A stretch of 64,000 bases of DNA from positions 1-64,000 of the forward strand of contig JAIOTZ010000240.1 in assembly GCA_023374045.1 (NCBI GenBank), given 5' to 3'. Shown here piece after piece: positions 5,426-63,305 of the stretch. Every line of letters starts with the position of its first letter. The stretch's first letter is position 1. A program made the translations under genes and the position numbers. Origin of the DNA: Limonium bicolor (Eukaryota > Streptophyta > Magnoliopsida > Caryophyllales > Plumbaginaceae). The notes under the pieces were generated by a model, which saw nothing but the letters and a program-made list of their open reading frames with translations, was not told where the DNA came from and ran no database searches.

Positions 5426-6455
5426 GTACCGCTATTACCAATAAGTAATAAAAATTGTCTGCTTACCGCATTTTCATGCATGCTTTGGTGAATGAATGAG
5501 TTAGATGAGAATAAGATGAGATTAAAACTTAAGTAATACATAACCTATTACCACCTTAGGAAGCTTAAACATTTGTTATCCAATACCTTCGACACCTAAC
5601 CTGGAGGACACCAACATTGAAACCCGAGATTTTTCAACCGAACAATGTCAGGTTATCCGCCCAGGTATGATTTTATTAAGGGGATACCTAACACCATCAA
5701 CACAAATAGCCATCATCAGGAGATGTAGTCAACTAGGGGTGGGACCGGGAGGTTTTTATACACCAGAGTACCCAGGAGGAGCAAGGATGAAGTTAAAGAT
5801 GATGAGCCTAGGCAAGGATTGGAATCCGTATGCCAAGACGTACCAGACCACGAGAGCAAAAATAGAGTCTCACCACCGGGGATACCCGAAGAGTTCCATC
5901 CAGTTATAAAACAAGTCATGGAGATCGCTCAGAAGTTGGAAGCTGACCCGATTCCAGACATACAAGCAGACATCTGCATTATGAATTTCTACGAGAAAGA
6001 TGGGCAACTTGTACTACATCAGAATATGGACGAGACAACGGAGTCTCTCGAAAGAGGGATGCCCATAGTGTCTTGGTCCATTGGAGACGACGCTGAGTTT
6101 TTGTACGGCGAGCAGAAGCATGCGGACCGTGCTAACAAGTTAGTACTTAAATCGGGGGATGTATTAGTTATGGGAGGAGAATCAAGAATGTTATACCATG
6201 GGATTAAGAGAATTAAGCTGAATACAGCACCGTCGGCAGTAATCAATGCGACACATATGAGACCAGGACGGTTAAACCTAACCTTTATCAATATTAGCTA
6301 TGTAATGTTTTAAGTATGATGTAAGGAATGAGATGTAAGAAAGAAGCACATGATGTAAACAGGATGGTTATGAATAAAATAACAGTGTTGTTCATATTAA
6401 TTGTTACGACTCTTGTTATACCATCATTACTTTTGAAGCTTGTGAATACAATTAG
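5426..6455 (+). other. Alternative intron region around AlkB, Element A
   Basis: Donor GTACCG at 5426. The near acceptor (CCTTAG, ending 5559) gives a 134-base intron and opens AlkB in frame; the far acceptor (CAATTAG, ending 6455) gives a 1030-base intron and opens protease in frame. Both use the single nucleotide G at 5425 to complete a glycine codon. Inferred by eye and by comparison with Element E. Confidence 0.7.
5560..6313 (+). pseudogene. AlkB-like 2OG/Fe(II) dioxygenase segment of Element A, inactivated
   Basis: Same protein as the Element E AlkB exon and at the same position. Recognisable: GPGGFYTPEYPGG, KMMSLGKDWNPY (older copy reads MMSLG), the NxY motif (NFY), GDDAEFLYGEQ, SGDVLVMGGESR, second iron histidine (YHGIKRIK, His codon 6197-6199) and RPGRLNLTF. 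A one-base shift near 5870 splits it into frames 5667-5909 and 5819-6313. The first iron ligand motif, HQD in Element E, is HQN here (Asn codon 6023-6025), and an indel after LTF replaces the final arginine and moves the stop to 6311-6313. Two independent losses in conserved catalytic positions make activity unlikely. The family (AlkB dioxygenases) removes methyl groups from nucleic acid bases using 2-oxoglutarate, O2 and Fe(II). Confidence 0.9.
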
Positions 6456-17091: not shown

Positions 17092-17356
17092 GTGTTTTAA
17101 CTTGTTTTCAAGCTTGGTTTTCTTTGCTAATTGATTTAAAATGTCCATTAGCATATTACTAAAGTCTTATAATGGTATTTGGGTGCTAATCAAAGTCACT
17201 CCAAGCTTAGAGCACGTTTTTGCCCTGATTGCCCTTAAGGCACTTTCTTGTGTTTTCCTTGGTTTAAATTGTCTACCAATCTTTCTAAGGCATATTCTAG
17301 CCTTACTACATCATAATTTGATGTTCAATTAGCATACTTAGGTTTGGGGTATTTCA

Positions 17357-17370
17357 ATCTACCCCCCTTA
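17357..17370 (-). promoter_or_regulatory. Element B polypurine tract
   Basis: Complement of TTAAGGGGGGTAGAT, directly against the LTR. A second tract (complement of AAGGGGGGTAGAG) lies at about 18510-18523. Between the LTR and the hairpin at 17374-17393 the arrangement copies Element A. Confidence 0.85.
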
Positions 17371-17373
17371 AAA

Positions 17374-17393
17374 GAACTTTGTCCTCAAAGTTC
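17374..17393 (-). promoter_or_regulatory. Stem-loop upstream of the polypurine tract, Element B
   Basis: GAACTTTG-TCCT-CAAAGTTC as written on +, which is GAACTTTG-AGGA-CAAAGTTC on the element's own strand; eight perfect pairs. Confidence 0.75.
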
Positions 17394-22343: not shown

Positions 22344-22355
22344 GCTCTGATACCA
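22344..22355 (-). promoter_or_regulatory. Element B primer binding site, initiator tRNA-Met
   Basis: GCTCTGATACCA, complement of TGGTATCAGAGC, five bases from the LTR. It overlaps the palindrome CAGAGCGTAACTACGCTCTG at 22330-22349. Confidence 0.9.
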
Positions 22356-22360
22356 CTTTT

Positions 22361-27033: not shown

Positions 27034-28774
27034 AGGTCAGTCGGGGCAAATTTTCAGACAGTAAAATGTTACTGGAATGGACCGACCTTAGGACCGACCT
27101 TGGCAAGGTCGGTCGAGTAGGAATTTTTTAACCAGAATGTCTCTGGAATGGACCGACCTTGGGTAGGGTCGGTCAGTTGGGTCGGTCGGCCCATAAATAT
27201 AAAGAAAAAGGAAAACTTTAAGAATGTTAAGAGGTATTAATAGTAAGCCATTAAGAGGGCAATGATGATAAGGAAGATAGGAATATAAGGACCTAAGGGA
27301 TTAAGTTAAGTTAAAGATTAAGTTTGTAAGGTTAAGTTTGTAAGAACTTAGGAGGTGTTAAGTGGGGGTTATTAAGGGTTAAGTAAGTTAAGTAATGTAT
27401 AAGTAATTAATAATCTTTGTTTTCAAAAAAAAAGTAATTAATAATCTAAGATGGATGAATGTTTTAGGATTTGGAAGTTTGGAACCGGAAGAGAATTAGA
27501 CAACCGGGACAACCGACGGTGAACGGTATAGTTTTCTTGTGACCTGCTTGCTAACGAGGTGTCCCTCGGCTTGTGTGCTATCTGTTTATTTGCTATGACT
27601 AAAACAAGATAAAGCATGCAACCGGTGTTATTGCACCCATTGTGTTTGTGTTTTCTTTACACTAACACACGTGACTTGAGATTAGTTACTAACTAAGTTT
27701 AGTACCTATTGGAATGAGGAGAGGAAGTATACTTCGGTAACTGTTGGTTAATACCCGTTAAGGTTTAACTAACACATGGTTTATAAGATTTTCACTAACT
27801 GGAACTTAAGAGGAGTGAGGAATCCGGGACTGACTCCGGTCATGCATGTTAAGGAAAAAGGGGGTCGGTATCTGAATCAGATCCGATCTCCGCTTAAGGA
27901 CTTGTCTTCGGACTTGTTGCCTAGGGTCGAATGTCGGCTCAGCTACATTGGATTTCCAATCCAAGGTAGGAGGCAGTTAAGATGGTGCGGTAGGATCACC
28001 TAAATCCTAAATTTTAAGATAAGTTGTTTATTCAACCAATGGAGTTAATAGCTCATTGGCTAGGGTTGCTTTTGACCCGACAAAAATAAACATTGAGATA
28101 AGATACAACCATTTCTATTTAAAGAACGGTACGTATTCTAAGACTGAGGTAAGGATTTAGCTTGAGATAAGTTAAGATGGACTGAGGTTGAGTGGAATTG
28201 GAACTTGAGGAGTTAACTGATTAACTCACCTGTTGAGAGAACGTTTTAAGTCGTTCATTGTGTGTGAACTATGCTTGTTCATTTGTGGATTGTTGTTTTA
28301 TTGCACTTCATATGATGATTGTGTATCTAATCAATCTCCATGCTATCGACAATTAGTCATCGTAGCCTCGTTAGCTTGGGGGCCATGAGAGAATCGTACC
28401 AGCAAATTTGCTGACCCCCTCGGGGGCTGTTGTTTATATTTTTCAGGTAAGCGTCCCATGAAGACTCACCTTGAGAGTAGGGGCGGTTAGACTTAGGTCG
28501 GGTTTTCATTTTGAGTACGGGTTGCGCCTGTGCACCCGTCTGTTGATATTAAGTCTTATGGAAGATATGTTGTTACTTGAGATACTATACACTCGGTTGG
28601 TGATTATTTTGGTTGGTATGTATATTTTGGATTAGCGGTTGTAAATGTCTAAGGTTCGGATATTCTGTTGTTCAGACCGTGGCGAGGTCCTGGTGTTGGT
28701 TTAATTCCGCTGCGACATCATATTTATACTGTTAAGATGCGATAACCACGATTGGCTTAGGGTGGGGTGTTGCA
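27034..28774 (+). repeat. Element A 3' LTR, right part
   Basis: Resumes at the duplicated AGGTC (27034-27038) and matches 2086-3794 of the 5' LTR. It has a small insertion around 27415-27435 containing a poly-A run. Ends GGGGTGTTGCA at 28774. The following ATTTT (28775-28779) is the expected target duplication; its partner is outside the window. Confidence 0.9.
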
Positions 28775-32307: not shown

Positions 32308-33003
32308 TTTTTTTTTTGAAAACTGAGTGTAGATTTATAATATCAAGTTGCGTACAAGTTCCGGAATGTTCTCCGGTGTCCATGAACCCGTTAACCGTGT
32401 ACTACGGGCATGGTTAGCTAAATTATGCGCTAGAAAATTATCCTCCCTAGGAATATGAAACCATAAAACATCCTGAAACATTCCTAAGGCTGCCAAAATA
32501 CGATCTAAAATGGTAGTTGTTGATGGTAGAAGCGCTGAAGTTTTGCCTGATTGCAAGTACTGGAAGATCGGCCTACAATCGAACAATACCCGTATATTTG
32601 CAACCCTTAAATCCTTTGCCGCATGCAACATATCCTCAATAGTTGTAGCTTCCGCATCCGCAATACTGGTTGGTGCTCTAAAACACCTACCTCCTGCGGA
32701 AATCAACTGTGACCGTTGCCACCCCACCCATGCAACACCCACTTGGCTATTTGAATCTAAACTAGCGTCAGTAAAAAACTCTGACCACATAGGGTAATCA
32801 GAGCGATGCTGCTGAAGGAGTTAAGAACTGGCGTGAGCAGTGGACAAAGATTGGTGGTGGAAGGTGACAGCTTGGGACCAACCATGCTCGAAGTGCTGCA
32901 CCCGACCATGCGAAACCTGGCACTGTGCATACCAAAGTTGCCAGAGAAAACAAACACATTTCTTCACTGCTGCCCTGGAACTACCCAATATAAATTGAAA
33001 CAA
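32308..33003 (-). pseudogene. 5'-truncated LINE, RNase H (RVT_3) end
   Basis: Minus-strand frame 32335-32790 (151 codons) is an RNase H domain of plant LINE type: FFTDASLDSN (first Asp), DAEATTIEDML (Glu), VLFDCR (Asp) and IPREDNFLAHNLANHA near the end. Upstream in other frames (32757-33003) is the LW...-type linker seen between the zinc region and RNase H of LINEs (CFLWQLWYAQ). A run of T at 32308-32319 is the poly-A tail on the - strand, which fixes the 3' end and supports retroposition. The catalytic residues of this last domain are present, but the element lacks endonuclease and RT. A clear target duplication was not found. Confidence 0.8.
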
Positions 33004-40616: not shown

Positions 40617-43600
40617 TGAAATACCCCAAATCTAAATAATATTATTAGATCATTATTTATGGAATATAATCCAAATATGAATCATTTCACGTACGCATGC
40701 AAACCCATGCATGAAAACGTTACGTAAAAACAGTCGTTTCTCCATAAACGCTAAAACGCCTTAGAAGCATATGGTCAAACATGACCTTGTATGACCCTCT
40801 AATATTCAAACCAAATGGTCATACAATTATTATATGAATATATAAATATATTCCCTAAGCTAAATTCAGTCAAAAACGCAAAACGCTCGGGAGTGCTCAC
40901 GCACGCTCCTTAAAGCACGAAAAGCCCGGAGGAGTGCCGAGGTGGCACGAACTCCTATAAAATTAATTCCTAGAGTTCCTAACATCATTATTTATCATTC
41001 TAAAGAGAAACCACGAAGTGGTTTCTCAAAATTCAACAAAATCCTCGGGAGTATTTCTTAGCGCTCCTTTTTGGCCCGGGAGTGTCCCGATGGCCCGTAA
41101 ATTATGTCACGGGTTGATATAACCCCATATAACTCAATGTAACATCTTAGTATATGTTTATTTACCATAATAAGTGTTTACAAACACTTGTAACTCATAA
41201 AAACAATTGGTTTCCAAAAAGGTTCCTTAGAGCACAAAAACACACCTTCGGGTGTCACGAAAATGCGTTTTACGCAATTGCCTTGTAGTTTTTGACATAC
41301 CACGAATTGGTAATCTTAAAAAGGGTTAAAATGACCTTCTAAATCAGTTGGTGTGACTAGTCAACAAGGCTCTCTATAGGGGCCGATTTTAAGAGCAAAA
41401 ACTAGTATAAAATTTGCTTTAAAAAGTTTATAAAAGGCTTAAAACATGATGACTCATCATCCCATGTGTTATATTACTTAATGCAAAATTATGTAGGTCT
41501 CATATGACCAGCAAGCTGTCGAAATTATGCAGAATAATAAGGCCATGTGAGCTAGGAAGAAAACAAAATGCAAAAAGGTAAAAAGTAGATCTAAGATTCC
41601 TTTCTTTTGCTTTCTTACAAACTAAGTAATCTTCCATGTTCTTCCTTGGCTATTCATGGCCGGTTTTTGAGCTCCATTCAGGCCTCCAATTCGTGACTCT
41701 ACATGAAGAAGAAGACAGGCCAATTAGCATTGAAAAATCAAAGGAATATCCTTACCTTTTCTTACCTTGTCATCTAGCCAACATTATTTGCTTTCCAACT
41801 CTTGCTTAGTCACACCACATGGCCGGTTTTCATGCTGGAAAGGAGGACATTTATTGAGCCAATCAACCAAGAAATAAACTAAGAAAAAGCATAGTCTTTT
41901 GACATTAAAAATTGACAAACAAAAATCAATTCTAGAATTGCATTCTACCTTATACGTGAGTGAGCCTCATTTCCCTCCTTGCACAATTCTTGCACGGTTT
42001 GGTAAGCTCCCTCCTCTCTCTTCTAGCTTCATCTTCTTCCTTTGAAGCTCTTAAGTCCATTAATGGAGTTTTAACTTCTATCTTCATCTTTAAGGTAATT
42101 TCCTAGCATTTCTTGGCAAGTCTTGAAGCAAAACTCTTCCTAGCATAACAAGGTGTGTTCGGCTTCATTTAGTTCTCCAAGGAGATTGTCCAAACCAACA
42201 TTAAACCAAGGAGCATCTCAAGGTTATCTTAAGGTAGGTTTTAAAGCTTGAAAATCCTTAAAGCACATTTTTATGTGTAACCAAGTTCTACTTCTTCTAA
42301 GTCTCTTTTCTTATTCATTTTGATGAAGGAAAACTTGCTCTTCATCTACCTTTGGTGAGCCGAAATTATAAGAGAAAAAGTCTAAGGTAAAGTCTTGTAA
42401 AACTACTTACAAATCCACTTAAGATCTTTGTTGAAGATCTAACTCCTAAACACCTTCACCTCTTGCATAAAACCAAAGAGGAGCATCAAGTTTACCTAGG
42501 AGAAAGCTTGGAGATTCAAGAAGAAGTCCAAGCACTTAACCACCTTTGTTAAGAAGTAAGTTCACTAAGTAAATCTTTATGTTATAAGCTTTGTTAAGCT
42601 TCTAAAAATTATACAAAAATTATGTACACCTCCTAGGTTGTATGAAACCGAAACTATATGGTATTATATGCCAAAAATATAATCTATAACTTATAAGGAA
42701 AATATTTACCTTAAGACACATTTTTGTGTCACAAAATTTATTTATGTTACATACACATTCAAGCCGAATCATCTAGGACAAAAGTACTTCATTTTGAGCT
42801 AAGAATTTATATAAGACATTACAATAATTTATACATGAGTTATATGACTCCTATGAATTTATTTATAATTATTTAGACATATAAATCCACTTTTATATAA
42901 CATATGGTCTCATTTAAAATATGGCCGAATGCTCTAGGTGTTAAATGGAATTCAATGAGCTACTTATGTATATAAACTTATACTATAAAGTTTGGTGAGT
43001 TAAAAATATTTATTTAGTGCTTAAATGGCTAATTAATTAAGTTATGTGGCTTAAATGTAATTTTTACAAAGTTTAGTGCAAATATTGTGAAAGCCGAGAG
43101 CTAAAGGGTATTTAGTGTATTATGATATAATATAAGGTTAGGAATTGAGTTTATGAATTTTAGATAATTTAAACAAGCCTTAAAATAACTTTTATAAAGT
43201 TTTGGGCTATTATGTAATTTATAAAAGTTGATATGAAAGTTTGTAAATTATTAGTGGGCGAATTGATAATTAAGAGAATCATTGAGTTCACTTTCGAAAT
43301 TTTGAAGGATTAAATATTTAGGCTTTAGATTATAAGTTATTAAGATACTAATATAAAGTTTTGGGATGAAAATGTAATTAAGGAAAAATAAATGACATAG
43401 CCGAATTACTTTGGGGTTAGTTTGGTAATTTAAGAATTTATATATATATATTCGGCATTTATGGAGAATTAAAATTAAAACTATAGTTTATAAGACATTA
43501 TGTAAAGATTATAAGATTTTGTGGCTAAATTGCAATTATAGAAAGTATAAATATATGCCGAGATTTTGAGGGGCTAAGATGTAATTCTTGAAAGTTATAA

Positions 43601-45468
43601 TATTTATAAGTTATGTCCAAAAGATTAGTGGTAGTTTTGTAATTTAATTAGATGAGGAATTAAAACTATGTTATATAAAGAGATTAGAATTTAAGTGTAA
43701 AGTTTATGAATTAATGTGGTTGTTTTGTAAATAACCGAAATACAAGTTTAAGAATTTAGATTTAAATAAATATAGGTCCTATATGGATATTTGGAGGATT
43801 TAGAAGAAAGAATTTTGATTAAAGGAATTATGGAATTAAAACTATGGCTTACATGGTTATAAGGAATTAAAAGATAAACAATAAATATTATTTATGGTTA
43901 AAAGGAGAATAAAAAACTATAAGAATTTTATGTCTATGTATGACATATAAATATAGTTAAGAAATTATAAGTTGTTATGTCACCTAGACAAATAAAATAA
44001 ACAACAAATGCAATAAACACATATGTGTGCATTAAAGGATTTATAAATAAATCAAAAGGAATAACAAATAAGTTATACTAAATCATGAGGTAATTAAAAG
44101 AAATAAACCTCACATGAAATAACAAATACGAGATTTGTTAAATGATCCAATAGAATTATTATATAAGGGTAACATAAATTAACCCTCTCAGTCAATCCTA
44201 TTCTAGGACTTTGTTTGACCAGACGTTGACCAGGAATTAAACGAGTACAGTCTACGGTGAACGGTATGGGATTCTTGCAACCTGTTTTCTATCGGATTAC
44301 ACCGGCTTGTGTGCTATCTGTTGTTTGAAATAACGACCAAGATAATTAATGTAAAATGTTGTTTACTCTTGTGCTGTTGTATTATTTTATGTGCGTGAAT
44401 GTTGCTGACTACAACGTGTATGTCCCACGCATACAAACACTACTATACCAGTGGATTAAATACCTGCGCTTCAGTATACCGAGGACTTGTACTCAAGTCT
44501 CTCACTAACTTCACTTTATAACAACGTCATTATCCTAAACGTGATAATTGACAATACACATTGTGTTCTTGTTTAACGTCTTTATATGACACTTAACAAT
44601 TCTATACTTCGAGAACGAGGAGCCCAGTTGGATCTGGCCATGCATGCTACAGGAGTTGTACCTGTCTCAGGTCGTCTCCTACTACGTCGCGACGGAACAT
44701 TCAGTTGGGAGGAAGACTCTATTCCTCCCGGGATTCAAATGCCCATCAGTTCAGTTTGAGGAAGATTTCATTCCTCTAGTGGGATTCATTTTCCCACGCC
44801 TCTCAGTTCAGGGTTTAACTACGTTATCTCCTGGGGTTTTTATACCCAACCTTTCTCTATAACGAGGTCACTATACCTCCACTATTGATATACTTTTATA
44901 CATCTGTCAGTCCCACTGTGTGGACCCGACAGCTATCAGACATTTCAGTTCAGCTAACTTGACCTTCTGTGTCTTGTTCTATGTGACATTATTGTCCTTG
45001 TTTGGATACTTGTTATCATCAGATTATGCTTGTTTACAGCTTTATAAAAATGAACTGCATGTGTTCGACAAAGTAGTTGGTGTGGCCCGGTAGACGATGG
45101 GCTGCACGTTTTCCATACCAGCATTGTTTGCTGAGCCCCTTTGGGGGCACCCCCATTTTTCAGGTACCTGAAGTTTAAGAAGATCACCACACTGAGTGTA
45201 GGTGGGGTAGACCAAGCTTTGGGAGTCTACATTAGTTAATTATTTTATTTCAGTATTTTACTTGAGTTTGATTCCTAGTATCTCGGGTTGTATCTGTATT
45301 CCAGACCGTGACATTTGAGGATTGTATTTGGACTTAGCCTTGTTGGTCACAAGGGTGGCCAACGGCATTGTAATACCGCCCGGTTGTTGTATTTATCTCC
45401 GCTGCAGTTGTATTTTATTTGGGAGTGATCGCCGTTCAGTTTATTGGATTTCGGGTTGGGGTATTACA
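40617..45468 (+). repeat. Element E 5' LTR
   Basis: 4852 bases, TGAAATACCCC to GGGGTATTACA. The body includes a long AT-rich part (42600-44200). The 72-codon frame at 44644-44862 recurs in the other LTR and has no domain. Paired hairpin at 45119-45148 (CAGCA-TTGTT-TGCTG, then GCCCC-TTTG-GGGGC). Confidence 0.93.
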
Positions 45469-45472
45469 AAAA

Positions 45473-45498
45473 TGGTATCAGAGCGTAGTTACGCTCTG
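45473..45498 (+). promoter_or_regulatory. Element E primer binding site within a palindrome
   Basis: TGGTATCAGAGC (45473-45484) fits initiator tRNA-Met. CAGAGCGTA at 45479-45487 pairs perfectly with TACGCTCTG at 45490-45498, so the 3' half of the PBS can be held in a hairpin. Confidence 0.85.
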
Positions 45499-45649: not shown

Positions 45650-46937
45650 ATGTCAGGAAGAGGAGGACGACGTGGACAGGCTGATGAGGAGCCAAACATC
45701 AGGCTGGCAGACATTGCTACCTTAATTGCTCAGGCATTTGCACAGGCGGGGGTTGCACAGCAGCAGCAGCTACCTCCACCACCACCACCCAGGGAGAGAG
45801 ACTGGGTGAAGAGTTTGGCTGATCTGAGGCCAACTGCATTCAAGGGGCAGACTGACCCTGCTCACTTAGAGACATACATCATGGAGATGGAGACAGCGTT
45901 CGAGACGCTTGCAGTCCCAGCTAGGGAAAAAGTAAGACTTGCAGCCTTTTATCTGAAGGATGCAGCGAGAGATTGGTGGAACATGGTGAAAGCCGACCAC
46001 CTGGATGACCCAGCTTTTACTTGGGGACATTACACTGCACTACTGAGAGGCAAATACTACCCGGCCCACACCAGAATGGTGAAGACTAGGGAGTTCGACG
46101 CCTTGGAGCAGACGGGGAAAATGACCGTGGATGAGTATTATGCCAAGTTTACTTCACTACTTCGGCTACTACCCGGTATAGGTTACTCGGACCAGGTTCT
46201 AGTTGACCGGTTCTACGGGGGACTGAGCCCTCGACTTCAGTTTGGGATGGGACCAATCATCCCCATCAGTTTACAGGAGTGTTATCATGCTGCCTCCGTG
46301 GTGGAGATTACATGCAAAAGAAGGGATGCTTTGAGCTCCCAGAAAAGAAAGGACGGACCTGGCAGTGAGGATGCCAAACAGGGAAACTCCAACAGAAGGA
46401 ACAAGCCCTATCAGAAAGGACAGGGGTCCTACCAAGGGAAGGGGAACCAAACTACTGGGAGCCCCCAGTCAGGAACCCACGGAGCAACAACTTCACAGAA
46501 AACCTACCCATCTAAGGGTAGGAACTCTAAGTTAAATTTGAGACTTTTGTGATTACTTCAGTACCTTTGGGATGTATAATTGACCTTGATTGTGTTAGGT
46601 TCTGGACATGGCTCAAACACGGGCCAGAAGTATGTCCGTCGTTTCAACTGTAAACAGTGCGGGAAGGATCACCCCGGCGTAGACTGCCAGGGGGAGAAAG
46701 TCATGTGCCGCTACTGTCAGATACTCGGGCATCGTGCCTTCGAGTGCATCCGAAACCCGGAAAGCAGGAACTACCGCCCGGGAGCAAAGGCAATCACCGG
46801 CCCTAAGAATGGAGCTAGCGATACTCGCCCTCCACCAACAAACCAGGCTCAGGGGTATAAGGGCAAAGGCCCAGCATCGGGACCCGCCCTACATGTCATG
46901 GACCGCTCGGATGAGGCTGGTCCTTCTACCAACCCAG
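45650..46937 (+). CDS. gag: Element E Gag (capsid/nucleocapsid), two exons
   Basis: Exon 1 is 45650-46517, exon 2 is 46599-46937, about 402 codons. The ATG gives MSGRGGRRGQADEEP, homologous to the Element A start. Residues about 65-250 form the retrotransposon gag domain (YLKDAARDWWNMVKADH, MTVDEYYAKFTSLLRLLPG, DRFYGGLSPRLQ). A basic Gln/Lys/Gly-rich linker follows, then in exon 2 two zinc knuckles: CKQCGKDHPGVDC (CX2CX3HX4C) and CRYCQILGHRAFEC (CX2CX4HX4C), for RNA binding and packaging. The intron 46518-46598 is phase 1 and the spliced codon is Gly. If it is not removed, translation stops within it at 46550-46552. The last nucleotide, G46937, starts a codon completed by either downstream acceptor. 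The protein forms virus-like particles in the cytoplasm. Confidence 0.9.
46518..46598 (+). other. Inferred intron within Element E gag
   Basis: 81 bases, GTAGGA...TTGTGTTAG, with in-frame stops. Same place and phase as 5004-5083 in Element A. Since exon 1 ends at PSKG and the knuckles are in exon 2, unspliced RNA would give Gag without nucleocapsid. Confidence 0.8.
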
Positions 46938-47929
46938 GTATTTCTAAACCATGTGAACCTGTTATTGAGCAATGAATGATGTGAATGAGTGCTTGCATGC
47001 CTTGATTGCCTAGTTGCATAGGAAAGAATTAGTAAGACTCACTAGTAAAAATTTAAACCACGTAGGAAGCTATAAGATATGCTTTCCTATCCCCTCACCG
47101 CCCTCCCTGGAGGAAAACATTATCAAAGTACAAGAACCAGGGAACGAACAATGTAAGGTTATCCAGCCAGGTTTGATATTACTCAAAGGATACCTAACAC
47201 CGGAGACACAAATAGCAATCATCAGGAAATGTCAAGAATTGGGAGCAGGACCAGGAGGGTTCTACACTCCGGAATTTCCAGGAGGATCAAAAATGAAGCT
47301 GAAAATGATGTGCTTAGGAAAAGATTGGAATCCTTACACAAAAACCTACCAAGATACAAGAAATGGAGATGGAGCACAAGTACCAAAAATCCCAGAAGAA
47401 TTTTTACCAATTGTGGAACAAGCAGTTAATACAGCTCAACAGCTAGAAGAAGATCCAGTTCCCAATCTAAGGGCTGATCTATGTATCATCAACTTCTATG
47501 AAGAAGGAGGCCGTTTAGGACTACACCAGGACAATGATGAAACAAAAGGGTCCCTTGAACAGGGAATACCAGTATTATCTTTGTCAATTGGAGATGACGC
47601 AGAGTTCCTTTATGGCGAGCAGAAGCGTGTGGACCTTGCAAAGAAAATAATATTGAGTTCAGGAGATGTTTTGATAATGGGTGGAAAGTCAAGGTTGCTA
47701 TACCATGGAATTAAAAGGATTAAGCTAAACACAGCACCTTCGACAGTGATAAACACCACTCACAGGAGACCAGGAAGATTAAGTTTAACCTTTAGAAAGT
47801 ACTAGTGTTGTAATTGATTTTGGACTTCAGAAAGGAGATCATCTCATCAATGAAGCATTATTGTTTGTGAAAGTGAATGTCTTTAGACCCCATCATGTAT
47901 CAAAGTACTTACTCAGATTCTGTTATTAG
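46938..47929 (+). other. Alternative splicing unit: gag donor with AlkB and pol acceptors, Element E
   Basis: Donor cca g|GTATTT at 46938. Acceptor 1, CACGTAG ending 47065, makes a 128-base intron and joins Gag to AlkB (codon GGA). Acceptor 2, TTGTTATTAG ending 47929, makes a 992-base intron that removes AlkB and joins Gag to protease (codon GGT). Both joins are phase 1 and in frame. Element A has the same arrangement. Splice sites are inferred from GT-AG, frame and comparison, not from RNA. Confidence 0.75.
47066..47805 (+). CDS. AlkB-like 2-oxoglutarate/Fe(II) dioxygenase exon of Element E
   Basis: About 246 codons, in frame with gag when spliced at 47065, with its own TAG stop at 47803-47805. 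Family hallmarks in order: GAGPGGFYTPEFPGG and MMCLGKDWNPY (substrate lid of the plant ALKBH1-like type), NxY (NFY) for 2-oxoglutarate, HxD iron ligands HQD (47524-47532), SIGDDAEFLYGEQ, SGDVLIMGGKSR, second iron His in YHGIKRI (47704-47706), and RPGRLSLTFR with the two arginines at 47776 and 47794 that bind 2-oxoglutarate. All catalytic residues are present and the frame is clean, so it looks functional. AlkB enzymes oxidatively demethylate bases in RNA or DNA. The motifs look more like plant ALKBH1-type proteins than the shorter AlkB domains of plant RNA viruses, from memory and not by search. As a Gag fusion it would be carried into particles. The codons look more AT-rich than gag, a possible sign of later capture. 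Confidence 0.92.
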
Positions 47930-50900
47930 GTTGTGCTAAGGAGACGGAAGGTGCCTTAAGTATACTTACTGAGGAGGAGGCCCGCAAGGGCGGCTCGATT
48001 CTCACTGGTACCTTTCCGGTTAATGGAGTGGATGCATTAGTACTGTTCGACTCCGGAGCCTCACATACTTTCGTTTCGCCTACGCTTGCGGGGAAGTTGG
48101 GGCTAGACGCTGTAGAGTTACCTGATTTTAAGGTGGCACTCCCGTCTAAGGAGAAGATCAGTTGCACTCGTCTTTATAGAGGAGCCACTATCAGTATTAA
48201 GGAGGAGGATTTCTTATTGACCTTATTGAGTTCAAAGGTCTAGGATTCGACGTTATAGTCGGGATGGACTGGTTAGGGCGGCACAGAGGCCGCATTCTTT
48301 GTGCAGAGCGCAGACTGTTGCTTAAGAGCCCATCAGGAGTGACAGTATCTTACCGTCAGAGCCCTAGGGCACCATCGATAAAAGTTATATCTGCTATGTC
48401 CATGTACAAGCACGTCAGGAAGCAGAAGGAGGTATATCTATGTTATGTTCAGGATGTAGAGCATGACCCTGATTTTGATCCAGCTATGCCAGTGGTGTCG
48501 GAATTTCCAGATATTTTTCCAAAGGAACTTCCAGGCTTACCGCCATCCAGAGAGGTAGAGTTCTCCATCGAATTATTACCAGGTACCGGTCCTATAGCTA
48601 AGGCACCGTACCGTATGGCACCAGCAGAGATGGCTGAGCTGAAGGAGCAGCTGAAAGATTTATTGGACAAGGGATACATACGACCTAGCGTATCTCCTTG
48701 GGGAGCACCAGTGCTTTTTGTGAAAAAGAAGGATGGAAGCCTTCGTTTATGTATTGATTACAGAGAGCTTAATGCAGTATCGGTGAAGAACAAATATCCA
48801 CTACCACGGATTGATGATTTGTTTGATCAGCTGAGAGGAGCAAAAGTGTTTTCGAAGATCGATTTGAGATCAGGCTACCATCAGATACCCATCAGGGAGC
48901 AAGACATAGAAAAGACAGCATTCAGAACACGGTATGGCCACTATGAGTTTACGGTTATGCCTTTTGGTTTGTCAAATGCACCTGCAGTCTTCATGGATTT
49001 GATGAACAGATTATTCAGAGAGCAGTTGGATAAGACCGTGGTTGTATTCATCGATGACATCCTCATCTATTCAAAGTCTAAAGAAGAGCATGAGAGTCAT
49101 CTCCGACATGTACTTGAGATCCTAAGGGAGAACCAGCTTTATGCTAAGTTCTCCAAATGTGAGTTTTGGTTAGACAGAGTTTCCTTTTTAGGACATGTTA
49201 TCTCTGATGCTGGGATCGCAGTGGATCCAGCAAAGATAGAAGCAGTTCGCACTTGGCCTAGGCCAAAGACAGTTACGGACATCAGAAGTTTCCTTGGTTT
49301 AGCAGGATACTACAGAAGGTTTGTCAGAGACTTCTCCAAAATAGCCAAACTATGACCAGCTTAATGAAGAAGGACGCACCTTTCACATGGACTACTGAAT
49401 GTGAGACCTCATTCGAGCTTTTGAAGAATGCTTTGACATCAGCACCAGTTTTGACTATACCTGAAGGCACAGAGGGTTATGAAGTTTACTGTGATGCATC
49501 AGGCAGAGGATTAGGGTGTGTACTCATGCAGAATGGGAAGGTAGTCGCCTACGCTTCCCGACAGTTGAAGAAACATGAGGAAATTATCCCACACATGACT
49601 TGGAGCTTGGAGCTATTGTTTTTGCATTGAAGATCTGGCGCCACTACCTGTATGGTGTCCAGATGACCGTATATTCGGATCACAAGAGTTTGAAGTATGT
49701 ATTCACCCAGAAGGAGTTAAACATGAGACAAAGAAGATGGGTTGAATTTCTTAAGGACTATGACATTGATTTGCAGTACAAGGAAGGAAAAGCTAATGTT
49801 GTAGCAGACGCATTGAGTCGACGAGCACATTCTTAAATGCCATTGTGGCTAGCTCGAGTCTTATAGACGACATACGTAGCACAGCAGAGGATCAGCGAAT
49901 GATGGAGATCAGTCAGAAGTTGACTGACGGTACATTTGAGGGTGGTAAGTATGAGTTTCAGCTACATGATGATGGACTCATCAGATTGAAGGGCAGATTG
50001 TGTATTCCCAGAGACAGCACAGATATAAAGGAGCATATTCTTCGAGAGTCCCACACTTCTACCACATCTGTCCATCCAGGAGCTTCTAAGATGTACAAGA
50101 TCTAAAGAGGTATTTCTGGTGGAGTGGTATGAAGGGCGACGTGACAGAGTATGTGATTCGATGTCTCACTTGTCAGAAAGTGAAATTCGAACATAGACGA
50201 CCAGGAGGTATGGTACAGTCTATGCCAGTTCCAGATGGAAGTTTTATGATTCTATGGACTTCGTGGTGGGACTACCACCTACGAGAGGAGGCCTTAATAT
50301 GATTTGGGTTGTTGTTGATCGACTGACTAAGGTTGCTAGGTTTATTCCGATGAAAGACACTTGGAAAGTGCCAAAGTTGGCAGACTATTTGAGCAGAGAT
50401 TATCAGACATCATGGAGTACCTAAGACTATTGTTTCAGATCGAGATACTAGATTTCTCTCACGATACTGGCGAGCTACTCGCGAGCACTTGGCACTGATT
50501 GAAGCTTAGCACAGCATTTCATCCTCAGACAGATGGTCAGTCAGAGAGGACTATTCAGACCTTAGAGGACATGCTACGAGCATGTGCCTTGGATTTCCAG
50601 GGCAGCTGGATAGATAGATTACATCTCATCGAGTTTGCTTACAATAACAGCTATCACGCCTCTATACAGATGTCACCTTTCAGCTTATATGGCAGACCAT
50701 GTCGCACACCATTGTGCTGGGACGAGTCTAGTGAGACCGTCATCATTGGGCCTGAGTACTTAGAGCAAGTCCAGGCAGGTACACAATCAGAAAACATGAA
50801 AGCAGCACAAGACAGACAGAAATCATATGCTGATGAGAGGCGACGAGACCTTGAGTTCGCGGTTGGCGACCAGGTATTTCTACGAGTATCACCCATGAAG

Positions 50901-51282
50901 GGTGTATTCAGATTTGGACAGAAGGGCAAGCTAAGCCCGAAATTTGTAGGACCCTACGCTATCATAGAGCGGGTTGGTCTTGTGGCATATCGACTTGATT
51001 TGCCAGCCGAATTAGGCAAAGTACACAATGTTTTTCGTGTCTCAGCTTAAGAAATACATGCCTCATCCTTCTCATGTTCTACAACCTGAGACACTCTCTT
51101 TAGAACCAACAATGCGGTATGTGGAAACACCGCAACGAATCTTAGACAGAAAGACACGAGATACTCGAAACAAATCTGTAAGCTTAGTAAAGGTTCTTTG
51201 GTCAAACCACGATGTGGAGGAGGCCACATGGGAATTAGAAGCAGATATGCGAGCGAAATTTCCCTCATTATTTACCGACTAG
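47930..51282 (+). pseudogene. pol: Element E pol: protease-RT-RNaseH-integrase-chromodomain, with small frame breaks
   Basis: Begins at acceptor 2, in frame with gag. Protease LFDSGASHTF near 48045-48075; reverse transcriptase [20 protein letters not shown] and [13 protein letters not shown] (about 49040-49080); RNase [12 protein letters not shown] and DHKSLKY, ending [10 protein letters not shown]; integrase zinc finger HPGASKMYK...CLTCQKV; core [16 protein letters not shown] and FHPQTDGQSERTIQ; GPY domain KFVGPYAI; chromodomain-like RILDRKTRD...VKVLWSNHDVEEATWELE; stop 51280-51282. Breaks near 48220, 49348, 49587, 49832, 50102, 50235, 50390, 50495 and 51040 are nearly all losses of one or two bases with no substitution stops. 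Their enrichment in the right half may reflect assembly error. Without them this would be a full polyprotein of about 1100 residues. Confidence 0.93.
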
Positions 51283-51789: not shown

Positions 51790-54700
51790 TGAAATACCCC
51801 AAATCTAAATAATATTATTAGATCATTATTTATGGAATATAATCCAAATATGAATCATTTCACGTACGCATGCAAACCCATGCATGAAAACGTTACGTAA
51901 AAACAGTCGTTTCTCCATAAACGCTAAAACGCCTTAGAAGCATATGGTCAAACATGACCTTGTATGACCCTCTAATATTCAAACCAAATGGTCATACAAT
52001 TATATGAATATATAAATATATTCCCTAAGCTAAATTCAGTCAAAAACGCAAAACGCTCGGGAGTGCTCACGCCGCTCCTTAAAGCACGAAAAGTCCGGAG
52101 GAGTGCCGAGGTGGCACGAACTCCTATAAAATTAATTCCTGAGTTCCTAACATCATTATTACCATTATAAAGAGAACCCACGAAGTGGTTTCTCAAAATT
52201 CACAAAAACCCAGGAGGATTTCTTAGCGCTTTTTTGGCCCGGGAGTGTCCCGATGGCCCGTAAATTATGTCACGGGTTGATATAACCCCATATAACTCAA
52301 TGTAACATCTTAGTATATGTTTATTTACATAATAAGTGTTTACAAACACTTGGAACTCATAAAACAATTGGTTTCCCAAAATTTCCTTAGAGCACAAAAA
52401 CACACCTTCGGGTGTCACGAAAATGCGTTTTACGCAATTGCCTTGTAGTTTTTGACACCACGAATTGGTAATCTTAAAAAGGGTTAAAATGACCTTCTAA
52501 ATCAGTTGGTGTGACTAGTCAACAAGGCTCTCTATAGGGGCCGATTTTAGAGCAAAAACTAGTATAAAATTTGCTTTAAAAAGTTTATAAAAGGCTTAAA
52601 ACATGATGACTCATCATCCCATGTGTTATTACTTAATGCCAAAGTATGTAGGTCTCATATGACCAGCAAGCTGTCGAAATTATGCAGAATAATAAGGCCA
52701 TGTGAGCTAGGAAGAAAACAAAATGCAAAAAGGTAAAAAGTAGATCTAAGATTCCTTTCTTTTGCTTTCTTACAAACTAAGTAATCTTCCATGTCTTCCT
52801 TGGCTATTCATGGCCGGTTTTTGAGCTCCATTCAGGCCTCCAATTCGTGACTCTACATGAAGAAGAAGACAAGCCAATTAGCATTGAAAAATCAAAGGAA
52901 TATCCTTACCTTTTCTTACCTTGTCATCTAGCCAACATTATTTGCTTTCCAACTCTTGCTTAGTCACACCACATGGCCGGTTTTCATGCTGGAAAGGAGG
53001 ACATTTATTGAGCCAATCAACCAAGAAATAAACTAAGAAAAAGCATAGTTTTGACATTAAAAATTGACAAACAAAAATCAATTCTAGAATTGCATTCTAC
53101 CTTATACGTGAGTGAGCCTCATTTCCCTCCTTGCAATTTTGCACGGTTTGGTAAGCTCCCTCCTCTCTCTTCTAGCTTCATCTTCTTCCTTTGAAGCTCT
53201 TAAGTCCATTAATGGAGTTTTAACTTCTATCTTCATCTTTAAGGTAATTTCCTAGCATTTCTTGGCAAGTCTTGAAGCAAAACTCTTCCTAGCATAACAA
53301 GGTGTGTTCGGCTTCATTTAGTTCTCCAAGGAGATTGTCCAAACCAACATTAAACCAAGGAGCATCTCAAGGTTATCTTAAGGTAGGTTTTAAAGCTTGA
53401 AAATCCTTAAAGCACATTTTTATGTGTAACCAAGTTCTACTTCTTCTAAGTCTCTTTTCTTCTTCATTTTGATGAAGGAAAACTTGCTCTTCATCTACCT
53501 TGGTGAGCCGAAATTATAAGAGAAAAAGTCTAAGGTAAAGTCTTGTAAAACTACTTACAAATCCACTTAAGATCTTTGTTGAAGATCTAACTCCTAAACA
53601 CCTTCACCTCTTGCATAAAACCAAAGAGGAGCATCAAGTTTACCTAGGAGAAAGCTTGGAGATTCAAGAAGAAGTCCAAGCACTTAACCACCTTTGTTAA
53701 GAAGTAAGTTCACTAAGTAAATCTTATGTTATAAGCTTTGTTAAGCTTCTAAAAATTATACAAAAATTATGTACACCTCCTAGGTTGTATGAAACCGAAA
53801 CTATATGGTATTATATGCCAAAAATATAATCTATAACTTATAAGGAAAATATTTACCTTAAGACACATTTTTGTGTCACAAAATTTATTTATGTTACATA
53901 CAATTCAAGCCGAATCATCTAGGACAAAAGTACTTCATTTTGAGCTAAGAATTTATATAAGACATTACAATAATTTATACATGAGTTATATGACTCCTAT
54001 GAATTTATTTATAATTATTTAGACATATAAATCCACTTTTATATAACATATGGTCTCATTTAAAATATGGCCGAATGCTCTAGGTGTTAAATGGAATTCA
54101 ATGAGCTACTTATGTATATAAACTTACTATAAAGTTTGGTGAGTTAAAAAATATTTAGTGCTTAAATGGCTAATTAATTAAGTTATGTGGCTTAAATGTA
54201 ATTTTTACAAAGTTTAGTGCAAATATTGTGAAAGCCGAGAGCTAAAGGGGTATTTAGTGTAATTATGATATAATATAAGGTTAGGAAAGTTTATGAATTT
54301 TAGATAATTTAAACAAGCCTTAAAATAACTTTTATAAAGTTTTGGGCTATTATGTAATTTATAAAAGTTGATATGAAAGTTTGTAAATTATTAGTGGGCG
54401 AATTGATAATTAAGAGAATCATTGAGTTCACTTTCGAAATTTTGAAGGATTAAATATTTAGGCTTTAGATTATAAGTTATTAAGATACTAATATAAAGTT
54501 TTGGGATGAAAATGTAATTAAGGAAAAAATTAAATGAAATAGCCGAATTACTTTGGGGTTAGTTTGGTAATTTAAGATTATATATATATTCGGCATTTAT
54601 GGAGAATTAAAATTAAAACTATAGTTTATAAGACATTATGTAAAGATTATAAGATTTTGTGGCTAAATTGCAATTATAGAAAGTATATAATATATGCCGA

Positions 54701-56600
54701 GATTTTGAGGGGCTAAGATGTAATTCTTGAAAGTTATAATATTTATAAGTTATGTCCAAAAGATTAGTGGTAGTTTTGTAATTTAATTAGATGAGGAATT
54801 AAAACTATGTTATATAAAGAGATTAGAATTTAAGTGTAAAGTTTATGAATTAATGTGGTTGTTTTGTAAATAACCGAAATACAAGTTTAAGAATTTAGAT
54901 TTAAATAAATATAGGTCTTATATGGATATTTGGAGGATTTAGAAGAAAGAATTTTGATTAAAGGAATTATGGAATTAAAACTATGGCTTACATGGTTATA
55001 AGGAATTAAAAGATAAACAATAAATATTACTTATGGTTAAAAGGAGAATAATAAAACTATAAGAATTTTATGTCTATGTATGACATATAAATATAGTTAA
55101 GAAATTATAAGTTGTTATGTCACCTAGACAAATAAAATAAACAACAAATGCAATAAACACATATGTGTGCATTAAAGGATTTATAAATAAATCAAAAGGA
55201 ATAACAAATAAGTTATACGCTAAATCATGAGGTAATTAAAAGAAATAAACCTCACATGAAATAACAAATACGAGATTTGTTAAATGATCCAATAGAATTA
55301 TATAAGGGTAACATAAATTAACCCTCTCAGTCAATCCTATTCTAGGACTTTGTTTGACCAGACGTTGACCAGGAATTAAACGAGTACAGTCTACGGTGAA
55401 CGGTATGGGATTCTTGCAACCTGTTTTCTATCGGATTACACCGGCTTGTGTGCTATCTGTTGTTTGAAATAACGACCAAGATAATTAATGTAAAATGTTG
55501 TTTACTTGTGCGCTGTTGTATTATTTTATGTGCGTGAATGTTGCTGACTACAACGTGTATGTCCCACGCATACAAACACTACTATACCAGTGGATTAAAT
55601 ACCTGCGCTTCAGTATACCGAGGACTTGTAAGTCTCTCACTAACTTCACTTTATAACAAACGTCATTATCCTAAACGTGATAATTGACAATACACATTGT
55701 GTTCTTGTTTAACGTCTTTATATGACACTTAACAATTCTATACTTCGAGAACGAGGAGCCCAGTTGGATCTGGCCATGCATGCTACAGGAGTTGTACCTG
55801 TCTCAGGTCGTCTCCTACTACGTCGCGACGGAACATTCAGTTGGGAGGAAGACTCTATTCCTCCCGGGATTCAAATGCCCATCAGTTCAGTTTGAGGAAG
55901 ATTTCATTCCTCTAGTGGGATTCATTTTCCCACGCCTCTCAGTTCAGGGTTTAACTACGTTATCTCCTGGGGTTTTTATACCCAACCTTTCTCTATAACG
56001 AGGTCACTATACCTCCACTATATTGATATACTTTATACATCTGTCAGTCCCACTGTGTGGACCCGACAGCTATCAGACATTTCAGTTCAGCTAACTTGAC
56101 CTTCTGTGTCTTGTTCTATGTGACATTATGTCCTTGTTGGATACTTGTTATCATCAGATTATGCTTGTTTACAGCTTTATAAAAATGAACTGCATGTGTT
56201 CGACAAAGTAGTTGGTGTGGCCCGGTAGACGATGGGCTGCACGTTTTCCATACCAGCATTGTTTGCTGAGCCCCTTTGGGGGCACCCCCATTTTTCAGGT
56301 ACCTGAAGTTTAAGAAGATCACCACACTGAGTGTAGGTGGGGTAGACCAAGCTTTGGGAGTCTATTAGTTAATTATTTTATTTCAGTATTTTACTTGAGT
56401 TTGATTCCTAGTATCTCGGGTTGTATCTGTATTCCAGACCGTGACATTTGAGGATTGTATTTGGACTTAGCCTTGTTGGTCACAAGGGTGGCCAACGGCA
56501 TTGTAATACCGCCCGGTTGTTGTATTTATTCCGCTGCAGTTGTATTTTATTTGGGAGTGATCGTCGTTCAGTTTATTGGATTTCGGGTTGGGGTATTACA
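51790..56600 (+). repeat. Element E 3' LTR, also the 5' LTR of a second tandem copy
   Basis: 4811 bases, same ends as 40617-45468 and very similar throughout, but shorter by many one- to six-base deletions spread along it. Few substitutions are visible. Confidence 0.93.
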
Positions 56601-56838
56601 AAAATGGTATCAGAGCGTAGTTACGGTCTGGATACAAGGATACACCGAGATTAGGATTTCTAAGATTTTAGATTAAGGGTTGAGAGATAGTATTGAAAAG
56701 AGTTTAAGTTAGTTTTACTTAGACTACTATCCAAGACCAAGATTTTGACCACAGTGCCTAATATACCTCAACATCCTGCAGATGTCAGGAAGAGGAGGAC
56801 GACGTGGACAGGCTGATGAGGAGCCAAACATCAGGCTG
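56601..56838 (+). mobile_element. Second internal region of the tandem array: PBS, leader and gag start
   Basis: Matches 45469-45705 almost base for base: PBS at 56605-56616, leader, and a gag ATG at 56781 (MSGRGGRRGQADEEP). Only about 19 codons remain before LTR G begins at 56839 directly after 'aggctg'. The PBS palindrome has one mismatch here (TACGGTCTG). Confidence 0.9.
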
Positions 56839-57220
56839 TGTTGGGATAAAACTACACTATAATAAATATAGATTTATAGCAAACTAATAGGCAAGTGTAC
56901 CTATACGGAGTAGTAAAACAAGTGTCGTATCCACAGGGAGATTGTTCAATTATCCTAGTTTAGGTAGTTAATAAAAAACTGTAAAAAGGGGGGGTTTAGC
57001 CGGAGGCAAGCTTGATTTGTTTTAGAGAAAATATTAAGCAGATTAGAAAACTGAGTGCAGATGAATTAAATGGAACTCCGGGTTCAGGTTTTATATAATC
57101 TGATTAATTATACTATCTCTACCGGTTTAATTTATTAGTTTGGCAAAATTCCTGTTATTATCCTAAGGACTAAGTCATAGACCCTTAAGAACTCGTTTAC
57201 CAGAAAATGCTCGGTCTAAT

Positions 57221-58860
57221 TGTTAGCAGAAATATGTTACTATCTCTACCTAGGCAGTGTACCTATCGTTTTGCGGAATAGTGAATTGAGTGGGGTAGTC
57301 GATCTCAGGGACCTCGTTCAATTAACTGACAATTTATTTACTAACCGAGAAAACTAAACTAAGAAAACAGGAAACGTCACTTTTTCAGGTTTTACTTAAT
57401 TTAATAAAAGAATAACTCAACGAACGAAGATAAAATAATAAGATAATAAAACAGTAAAAATAAACTAAAATAAAGAGATAAAGATTCAAACTCTAAAATC
57501 TAAAGAAGCACCCCGGATTGTTCTACAAACCTTCACTTTATTAATCTATTTATAAACTCTTCCCTAATTCTGCAGTAAACTCAGGAATCTTAATTAATTC
57601 ATTGACCGGTCCCTGTACAACGAATCCTAACTGGTAGAAATAACAAGCCGCAAACCATGCCCAAGTCAATTCTAACCAATCGCTTTATAATCAATTCCTA
57701 TTGGAGACAGATTAACCTATAGGCAAACCATGCTTCTAGTCGTTAATCCGGTTTAACTTCCTATGTCTTGTTAACTAATCTCGGCGCCACTTTTTGATTA
57801 GAAAACTACAAGGATTGCTTTAATAATTAGCTAGAGAATTAAAGCACATGAAGAACAGGAATTAAACTACTGCAATTATAATCAAAGAAAAAGATTACAA
57901 AATAACTATAAAGATTCGGTTTGCTACCCCAACCCGGGGAGCTAAACTAACTACTCAAACATAACTCTAAAAATAATAAAAACAACAAAGGAAGAACACT
58001 TTGACATATTAGACAAAAAGGAAAGAAGAAACCCTATTAAGAAGATTCTCTGCTCCGTCTTCTGTCTTCACGTGTTTTTGCATTAATCCTCTGTCAGAAG
58101 TGTGGTGTGGTAACAATGGTGGATTTGTATGGAGTGGTCTGGTGTTCGATGGACTGTGATGGTGAAGATGATGGACGATGGCAGTGGTGATGATGCGGTG
58201 AAGAGAATTGGAGAGAGGCATAAGCCTCTGCCCGCGTGGGCGTGGGAGGATGATTTCTCTCGTTCCTGACTTCCTGAATATATAGAGCAGAGAGGCGGTC
58301 CTTGATTTATCAATTTGTAAAATATTTATCTCCTGTTTTTGATAATGATGATGTTGGTCCATCATGTACATGCCGATGATGATGGTCAAAGACCAAAGTA
58401 ATTCGGTTGCATATCTATGTTGCAGCCCATGATTGAATAAATTATATGGGCTCTTCTTGTACGTGCATATGTTGAAAGTCAATGTTCCCGGTCATAGAAC
58501 AAATCAGCCCACTCCTGCATGTGTGGCCCTGTACGTTCACATGCATCTGGCCCATTGACATCGTGAAACAATATTTGAATACCAATTAATCAAAATGCCA
58601 CGTGAAGATGCATTTGATTAATTATAACCGTGAGTGAATTAATATGTCGCGAGTGAATATCGTGAGTCCCATGAGTGTGCAGCCGTATATATATATATAT
58701 AATCCATGAATTTTACCTGTATTTGACACATAAAATGTATCAGTTCACATATAAATATAAATCTTAGAAAAAACACATGATAAGTGTAAAATATGACATG
58801 AATTGTTATAAAAATAGGAAGAATTAAAGCCCTAAAAATATATGTATTTCGCACTTATCA
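57221..58860 (-). repeat. Element F left LTR (3' LTR of the element)
   Basis: 1640 bases. A minus-strand frame at 58009-58482 is not kept in the other LTR because of small indels, so it is not a gene. The (TA)n tract at about 58685-58700 is short. Confidence 0.92.
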
Positions 58861-61613: not shown

Positions 61614-61619
61614 AAAATT

Positions 61620-63078
61620 TGTTAGCAGAAATATGTTACTATCTCTACCTAGGCAGTGTACCTATCGTTTTGCAGAATAGTGAATTGAGTGGGGTAGTCG
61701 ATCTCAGGGACCTCGTTCAATTAACTGACAATTTATTTACTAACCGAGAAAACTAAACTAAGAACACAGGAAACGTCACTTTTTCAGGTTTTACTTAATT
61801 TAATAAAAGAATAACTCAACGAACGAAGATAAAAATAAGATAATAAAACAGTAAAAATAAACTAAAATAAAGAGATAAAGATTCAAACTCTAAAATCTAA
61901 ATAAGCACCCCGGATTGTTTTACAAACCTTCACTTTATTAATCTATTTATAAACTCTTCCTTAATTCTGCAGTAAACTCAGGAATCTTAATTAATTCATT
62001 GACCGGTCCCTGTACAACGAATCCTAACTGGTAGAAATAACAAGCCGCAAACCATACCCAAGTCAATTCTAACCAATCGCTTTATAATCAATTCCTATTG
62101 GAGACAGATTAACCTATAGGCAAACCATGCTTCTAGTCGTTAATCCGGTTTAACTTCCTATGTCTTGTTAACTAATCTCAGCGCCACTTTTTGATTAGAA
62201 AACTACAAGGATTGCTTTAATAATTAGCTAGAGAGATTAAAGCACATGAAGAACAGGAATTAAACTACTGCAATTATAATCAGAGAAAAAGATTACAAAA
62301 TAACTATAAAGATTCGGTTTGCTCCCCAATCCGGGGAGCTAAACTAACTACTCAAACATAACTCTAAAAATAATAAAAACAACAAAGGAAGAACACTTTG
62401 ACATATTAGACAAAAAGGAAAGAAGAAACCCTATTAAGAAGATTCTCTGCTCCGTCTTCTGTCTTCACGTGTTTTTGCATTAATCCTCTGTCAGAAGTGT
62501 GGTGTGGTAACAATGGTGGATTTGTATGGAGTGGTCTGGTGTTCGATGGACTGTGATGGTGAAGATGATGGACGATGGCAGTGGTGATGATGCGGTGAAG
62601 AGAATTGGAGAGAGGCATAAGCCTCTCTGCGTGGGCGTGGGAGGATGATTTCTCTCGTTCCTGACTTCCTGAATATATAGAGCAGAGAGGCGGTCCTTGA
62701 TTTATCAATTTGTAAAATATTTATCTCCTGTTTTTGATAATGATGATGTTGGTCCATCATGTACATGCCGATGATGATGGTCAAAGACCAAGTAATTCGG
62801 TTGCATATCTATGTTGCAGCCCATGATTGAATAAATTATATGGGCTCTTCTTGTACGTGCATATGTTGAAAGTCAATGTTCCCGGTCATAGAACAAATCA
62901 GCCCACTCCTGCATGTGTGGCCCTGTACGTTCACATGCATCTGGCCCATTGACATCGTGAAACAATATTTGAATACCAATTAATCAAAATGCCACGTGAA
63001 GATGCATTTGATTAATTATAACCGTGAGTGAATTAATATGTCGCGAGTGAATATCGTGAGTCCCATGAGTGTGCAGCC

Positions 63079-63147
<69 letters not shown>

Positions 63148-63305
63148 CCATGAATTTTACCTGTATTTGACACATAAAATGTATCAGTTCACATATAAAT
63201 ATAAATCTTAGAAAAAAACACATGATAAGTGTAAAATATGACATGAATTGTTATAAAAATAGGAAGAATTAAAGCCCTAAAAATATATGTATTTCGCACT
63301 TATCA
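61620..63305 (-). repeat. Element F right LTR (5' LTR of the element)
   Basis: 1686 bases, from TGTTAGCAG to GCACTTATCA. Longer than the left LTR chiefly because of the (TA)n tract at about 63080-63144. Confidence 0.92.
63080..63144. repeat. (TA)n microsatellite in Element F right LTR
   Basis: About 32 TA units; the same site in the left LTR has about 8. Confidence 0.95.

Follow-up and report, generated by a model that had tools for sequence, protein, structure and literature searches.

A chromodomain Ty3/gypsy retrotransposon of Limonium bicolor with an ALKBH1-type exon and splice sites predicted to join it to gag

A chromodomain Ty3/gypsy LTR retrotransposon of Limonium bicolor, here called element E, carries an ALKBH1-type AlkB domain as an exon between gag and protease, and the genome contains copies in which this exon is joined precisely to gag. 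We propose that the element splices the exon onto Gag and that the resulting particle-borne enzyme demethylates the element's own RNA or cDNA, a reading to which we assign a probability of roughly 55%. All coordinates refer to the window, that is, the whole stretch of 64,000 nucleotides analyzed (assembly GCA_023374045.1, contig JAIOTZ010000240.1, positions 1 to 64,000), and to its plus strand unless noted otherwise.

The 5' LTR of element E (TGAAATACCCC ... GGGGTATTACA; 40617..45468) and its 3' LTR (51790..56600) were aligned to each other. They are 4.85 and 4.81 kb long, respectively, and have 27 mismatches over 4,799 aligned positions. At the grass substitution rate of 1.3e-8 per site per year, this divergence of 0.56% would correspond to about 0.2 million years. 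Behind the 5' LTR lie the primer binding site TGGTATCAGAGC (45473..45484, identified by sequence), which we take to be of the tRNA-Met type, and the first gag exon with the capsid (45650..46517; 868 nt without a stop; PF03732 and PF19259). The second gag exon (46599..46937; open, 339 nt) contains CCHC-type zinc knuckles that were recognized by eye, the Pfam scan of this piece having given no match. The start of the protease-pol exon, with a DSGA motif seen by eye, was placed at 47930..48219 by phase and by comparison with a second element of the window, element A. It is followed by the frames of reverse transcriptase (48264..49352; PF00078) and RNase H (49352..49627; PF17919, PF17917) and by a chromodomain (51028..51279; PF00385, E-value 1.5e-6). 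The core integrase had no Pfam match in the window pieces scanned. By its LTRs, gag, reverse transcriptase, RNase H, and chromodomain, with the protease assigned by eye, element E is a chromovirus.

A second internal region, with a primer site, a leader, and the start of gag, begins behind the 3' LTR (56601-56838), and thus E is a member of a tandem LTR-internal-LTR-internal array; another element cuts this region at 56838. Several genome matches of the family are also spaced by about 11 kb. Long direct repeats at 57220-58860 and 61619-63305 (96%) belong to an element that has inserted into the tandem copy of gag.

The sequence-only reading of this DNA had described a clean 246-codon AlkB dioxygenase with the HxD...H motif and both 2-oxoglutarate arginines between the gag zinc knuckles and the protease of E, and had named a profile search as the check. 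The open frame 47014-47805 matches PF13532 (2OG-FeII_Oxy_2) across the whole model with an E-value of 2.1e-47. The iron ligands are H at 47524-47526, D at 47530-47532, and H at 47704-47706, and the arginines (RxxxxxR) are encoded at 47776-47778 and 47794-47796, so the description stands. The same reading had linked the domain to RNA erasers of the ALKBH9 type; this did not hold, as the element AlkB groups with plant ALKBH1C/D and OsALKBH1, reported as DNA 6mA demethylases. The closest solved chain by sequence is rice 5xeg (E-value 4.6e-74), with E. coli AlkB next among the solved groups (4.5e-21). In the fold comparison, a predicted model with mean pLDDT of 87.4 was most similar to 5xoi and 5xeg (The structure of OsALKBH1; 51-52% identity, TM 0.82-0.92), and human ALKBH5 scored much lower (TMq 0.51). 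An ALKBH9/5-type eraser was therefore ruled out, OsALKBH1 ranking first in both sequence and fold and ALKBH5 far below.

Among the best 120 of 386 matches of the protein search, the top was occupied by four unnamed proteins with 63-74% identity and one more fragment with 68%; the remaining matches were plant ALKBH1-like proteins with 40-54% identity. In an unrooted tree of 63 rows, 56 of which were drawn from these matches, the seven element rows, including a long and partial row for element A, formed one side of a 100/100 branch, with the 56 host rows beside. The element AlkB belongs with the plant ALKBH1C/D group, plant ALKBH1 being the nearest known subfamily, and the tree would fit a single capture followed by divergence. 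The GDDAEF motif of the element AlkBs was found in one of 19 host rows (P0044, Kingdonia), the other 18 having GDS or GDT; possibly, this is a hint at the donor lineage. Viral contigs gave no match in one AlkB scan and three distant loci (29-33% identity) in another; the 80 loci listed by a genome contig scan were all bacterial records with at most 43% identity. No Gag-AlkB fusion protein with more than 52% AlkB identity was found among the best 120 of 192 matches, and the element-type proteins at the top of the profile search were P0001-P0004 only (best 120 of 5,065 matches).

What had been called an intact AlkB gene proved to be an intact domain, though not an independent gene. In window E, as in 19 of 20 other E-family copies drawn from the best protein matches in the genome, no in-frame ATG lies ahead of the domain before a stop is reached. 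Hence, AlkB is an exon, and a free-standing gene was rejected. A single gag donor (46937|46938) faces two acceptors, 47065|47066 at AlkB and 47929|47930 at the protease. Since all three sites are of phase 1, either acceptor joins gag in frame. The predicted GT...AG intron 1 (46518..46598, phase 1, 33% GC) splits gag upstream of the zinc knuckles and is missing from most spliced genomic copies. Predicted intron 2a, from gag to AlkB (46938..47065, phase 1, 36% GC), leads to the AlkB exon, which includes its stop codon (47066..47805; assigned by Pfam, residues, and predicted fold), while the alternative intron 2b, from gag to protease (46938..47929, phase 1), takes AlkB out. The GC content is 33-36% in predicted introns and 41-58% in exons. 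In window E, the unspliced frame yields a Gag of 300 codons lacking zinc knuckles; once intron 1 is removed, it extends to 414 codons, and the additional loss of intron 2a gives an open Gag-AlkB frame of 648 codons. The gag-protease frame meets its first stop after 506 codons, and thus pol is broken in this copy.

The donor and both acceptors are kept in all 20 further E-family copies. In A-like copies, the donor and the protease acceptor are kept in 11 of 11, and the AlkB acceptor in 9 of 11. The gag-AlkB-protease layout with phase-1 sites is thus common to the E and A families. Separately, 24 scored genome rows have one identical score (2.9e-167), with one TAG and one TAA in the matched stretch. 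Five of them (L112-L116) have an open AlkB exon, with a stop in the intron only seven codons upstream of it. Copies of this type may form a recently spread subfamily, where AlkB would be hardly reachable except by splicing.

The source genome, which comprises 2.92 Gb in 2,686 contigs, was searched for joined junctions with three mismatches allowed. The intron-AlkB boundary is present in its unspliced form at 1,891 places (at most three mismatches), and the E-family gag|AlkB junction, with intron 2a exactly missing, at 11 places with 0-1 mismatches; reversed-pattern controls gave none in either case. As three and two of these 11 places are units about 11 kb apart, they represent eight separate locations. 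When the eight loci were read, intron 1 was also missing in seven and retained in one; one of the seven has one base missing next to the junction. The gag|protease junction, which skips AlkB through exact loss of intron 2b, was found at three places with 0, 1, and 3 mismatches (reversed-pattern control 0), and intron 1 is missing in two of these loci and retained in the third. As a pattern match, the A-family gag|AlkB junction occurs at 11 places (four exact, three with one mismatch, and four with three; control 0).

Flanks were compared for four spliced and three unspliced copies. One spliced copy, at C6:226.25 Mb, is bounded by two LTRs, with 27 mismatches over 4,863 aligned columns, and by AGGAC on both sides as a 5-bp duplication of the target. 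Hence, at least one spliced form was inserted into the genome in the usual manner of an LTR element. GGGTA flanks the unspliced copy at C2:385.41 Mb on either side; in the other five, the ends are incomplete or unclear within the stretches compared, so that both full LTRs and a duplication are seen in one of the four spliced copies. Taken together, the genomic copies are strong evidence that the joined junctions arose through RNA splicing and reverse transcription, although several junction places may be descendants of one spliced copy.

An origin of the junctions by recombination, deletion, or misassembly seems extremely improbable to us. It would agree with the small indels in these copies and with the fact that several junction places are tandem units, but it would have to produce the exact removal of GT-AG segments at predicted sites for three junction types in two families, often together with the loss of intron 1, and to account for the spliced copy on C6, which has both LTRs and a duplicated target. 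The AlkB frame is shorter than 244 codons in six of the eight spliced loci read (192 codons in the copy with the target duplication) and is whole, at 244 codons, in two. As only these two keep it, the spliced loci document splicing rather than function. Our impression is that small indels between near-identical copies suggest some of the frame breaks to be added by assembly errors. On the evidence of phase-compatible introns and of spliced and unspliced forms present as genomic copies, element E appears to be a splicing-regulated LTR retrotransposon.

Element A contains the diverged AlkB that had been noted at the same place in the element as in E. Its exon (5560..6313) is decayed, with a frameshift and HQN replacing HQD, and its product is 55-67% identical to that of E. 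The sites of element A, a donor at 5425|5426, an AlkB acceptor at 5559|5560, and a protease acceptor at 6455|6456, are all of phase 1, as derived by hand. An additional 81-nt GT...AG stretch in the A gag (4676-4756), without a counterpart at that site in E, looks like a further, A-specific intron. A nested element at 12675-27034, with direct repeats at 12675-17357 and 22361-27034 that are 96.8% identical, appears to split the 3' LTR of element A. On the minus strand, a 151-codon frame at 32335-32790 resembles an RNase H domain by eye.

AlkB is under purifying selection between the E and A families. The two window exons differ with pN of 0.19 and pS of 0.78, the latter saturated, and the differences fall on codon positions 1, 2, and 3 in numbers of 56, 45, and 132; the two wrong frames gave ratios of 1.1 and 1.7. 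Identity between E and A is 47-55% in predicted introns, 68% in the AlkB exon, and 71% in the protease, but just 53% in the zinc-knuckle exon, where dN/dS is 0.18. Four A-like copies with open AlkB (244-251 codons) gave similar values against E (pN 0.18-0.20, pS 0.74-0.78) and a mutual dN/dS of 0.15-0.48, the maximum coming from the closest pair, and pN/pS for AlkB was 0.14 among 10 E-family copies; these genomic copies were chosen as best matches or for open frames, which favors intact AlkB, while the window pair was not. Because E and A share intron 1 and the gag-AlkB-protease sites despite saturated synonymous divergence, the intron-bearing form is the older one, and an intronless original state was rejected.

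The families are large: for E, 145 matches were scored out of 52,451 initial candidates, and for A, 150 out of 42,146, the candidate sets possibly overlapping. Chance insertion of AlkB into two elements, which would have undone the initial interpretation, was rejected by the 1,891 boundary places, the many scored copies, and the purifying selection between E and A.

In the proposed mechanism, host splicing would choose, at the one donor closing the zinc-knuckle exon, between two in-frame acceptors. The near acceptor would give Gag-AlkB, ending at the AlkB stop codon, and the far one would remove AlkB and give Gag-Pro-Pol; unspliced RNA would retain both options and be the form that is mostly inherited. 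Gag-AlkB would then co-assemble with Gag, which would carry AlkB into particles and place the eraser beside the packaged RNA and cDNA. There, a presumably active AlkB would act on 6mA or m6A of the element nucleic acid, and the "own eraser" role suggested earlier is plausible as a hypothesis. By analogy, the ALKBH1 subfamily suggests DNA 6mA as the substrate. Rice ALKBH1 is described as a nuclear enzyme that removes 6mA from single-stranded DNA and also acts on R-loops (PMC10469495), and a review names AtALKBH1A and 1D as 6mA demethylases (PMC12452645). The known methylation control in plants, as given in another review, is by RNA m6A on ONSEN, relieved by ALKBH9B (PMC12786077). The case for 6mA as the target is weakened in that the ALKBH1 type is reported to act on DNA 6mA, while the presence of this mark on retroelement cDNA is not established. 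The more specific version, in which the one donor switches between Gag-Pol and a Gag-tethered ALKBH1-type eraser and particles package a DNA-6mA (perhaps RNA-m6A) demethylase, is put forward as a tentative possibility.

The subfamily and the fusion partner of AlkB also bear on where and on what it might act otherwise. It could clear alkylation damage (m1A, m3C) from the element RNA or cDNA, unrelated to host methylation control; E. coli AlkB as the second-best solved group agrees with this, as does the repair idea for AlkB domains of plant RNA viruses cited in a report on orchid retrotransposons (PMC9289625). We consider such a repair role unlikely, given that OsALKBH1, AtALKBH1A, and 1D, which stand closer to the element AlkB, are described as demethylases of 6mA (PMC10469495, PMC12452645). 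Alternatively, Gag-AlkB could work mainly in the nucleus rather than in particles, lowering 6mA at element loci to favor transcription. The closest relative, OsALKBH1, is indeed reported as a nuclear enzyme with activity on 6mA, both in R-loops and in single-stranded DNA (PMC10469495), but the spliced product ties AlkB to the capsid and zinc knuckles, a composition that fits particles better than chromatin, and this makes a nuclear role rather unlikely in our view. That AlkB is a functionless passenger inside an intron is very improbable. The broken AlkB of element A and the stops in part of the scored genomic copies are what a passenger would show, but purifying selection has acted over a span where synonymous sites are saturated, many scored copies in both families have no inner stops, and the in-frame splice sites are kept.

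The expectation that a chromovirus with an AlkB cargo was undescribed held among the PMC papers listed by our searches (the top 20 of 295 entries for one of them; PMC does not cover preprints and most subscription journals), where we found neither a chromovirus with AlkB nor alternative splicing that decides between an enzyme exon and pol. The presence of AlkB in plant LTR retrotransposons as such is already published for Ogre/Tat elements of Phalaenopsis (PMC9289625), the single primary account of such a capture among the papers listed. New here are another AlkB, another Ty3/gypsy lineage, and another mode of expression; AlkB capture itself was known. A second AlkB subfamily, selected across synonymously saturated families, suggests that methylation of adenine is important for plant retrotransposons. 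With an AlkB of the ALKBH1 type, the focus shifts from RNA m6A to DNA 6mA and its possible part in transposon control, and the proposed Gag fusion would be a clear route to deliver the enzyme to the particle. If the mechanism is true, then, together with Phalaenopsis, erasure of adenine methylation would be a convergent counter-defense of plant LTR retrotransposons, using two AlkB subfamilies.

The closest known system is Gypsy_Pa_2799 of Phalaenopsis (Alvarado-Marchena, 2022), described as an Ogre/Tat element of 25.5 kb with an ALKBH5-like separate ORF2 of 565 aa, whose AlkB is reported to demethylate m6A RNA in vitro (PMC9289625). By that report's account, a screen of 121 genomes found PF13532 in no genome beyond the one orchid genus (PMC9289625). 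The Phalaenopsis elements and E are plant Ty3/gypsy elements with a captured AlkB that has catalytic residues, and both reach high copy number. By contrast, E carries a chromodomain, which the Ogre/Tat lineage of the Phalaenopsis elements lacks, and its AlkB is ALKBH1C/D-like and lies as an exon without its own ATG between gag and protease, whereas theirs is an ALKBH5-like ORF. Compared with plant ALKBH1 (OsALKBH1, AtALKBH1A/1D), the fold and residues are the same, with 51-52% identity to OsALKBH1, but the element AlkBs lack the host N-terminal region, except for a remnant of the FDIC motif, and occupy their own 100/100 branch.

Intron-regulated expression is described for Ogre, with an intron between ORFs, and EVADE (PMC12786077, PMC6317226), and for BARE (PMC3735527). 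As summarized in these sources, partial splicing of the transcript sets the polyprotein made, and in BARE and EVADE splicing favors Gag. While those elements produce Gag or Gag-Pol, E, as far as splicing can be read from its genomic copies, would have a third option, an enzyme exon inside the intron. In the betaretroviral nucleocapsid-dUTPase, an additional nucleic-acid enzyme is fused behind the Gag nucleocapsid by ribosomal frameshift. Element E resembles it in placing an extra enzyme behind the Gag nucleocapsid, and differs in the predicted splicing and in the enzyme itself.
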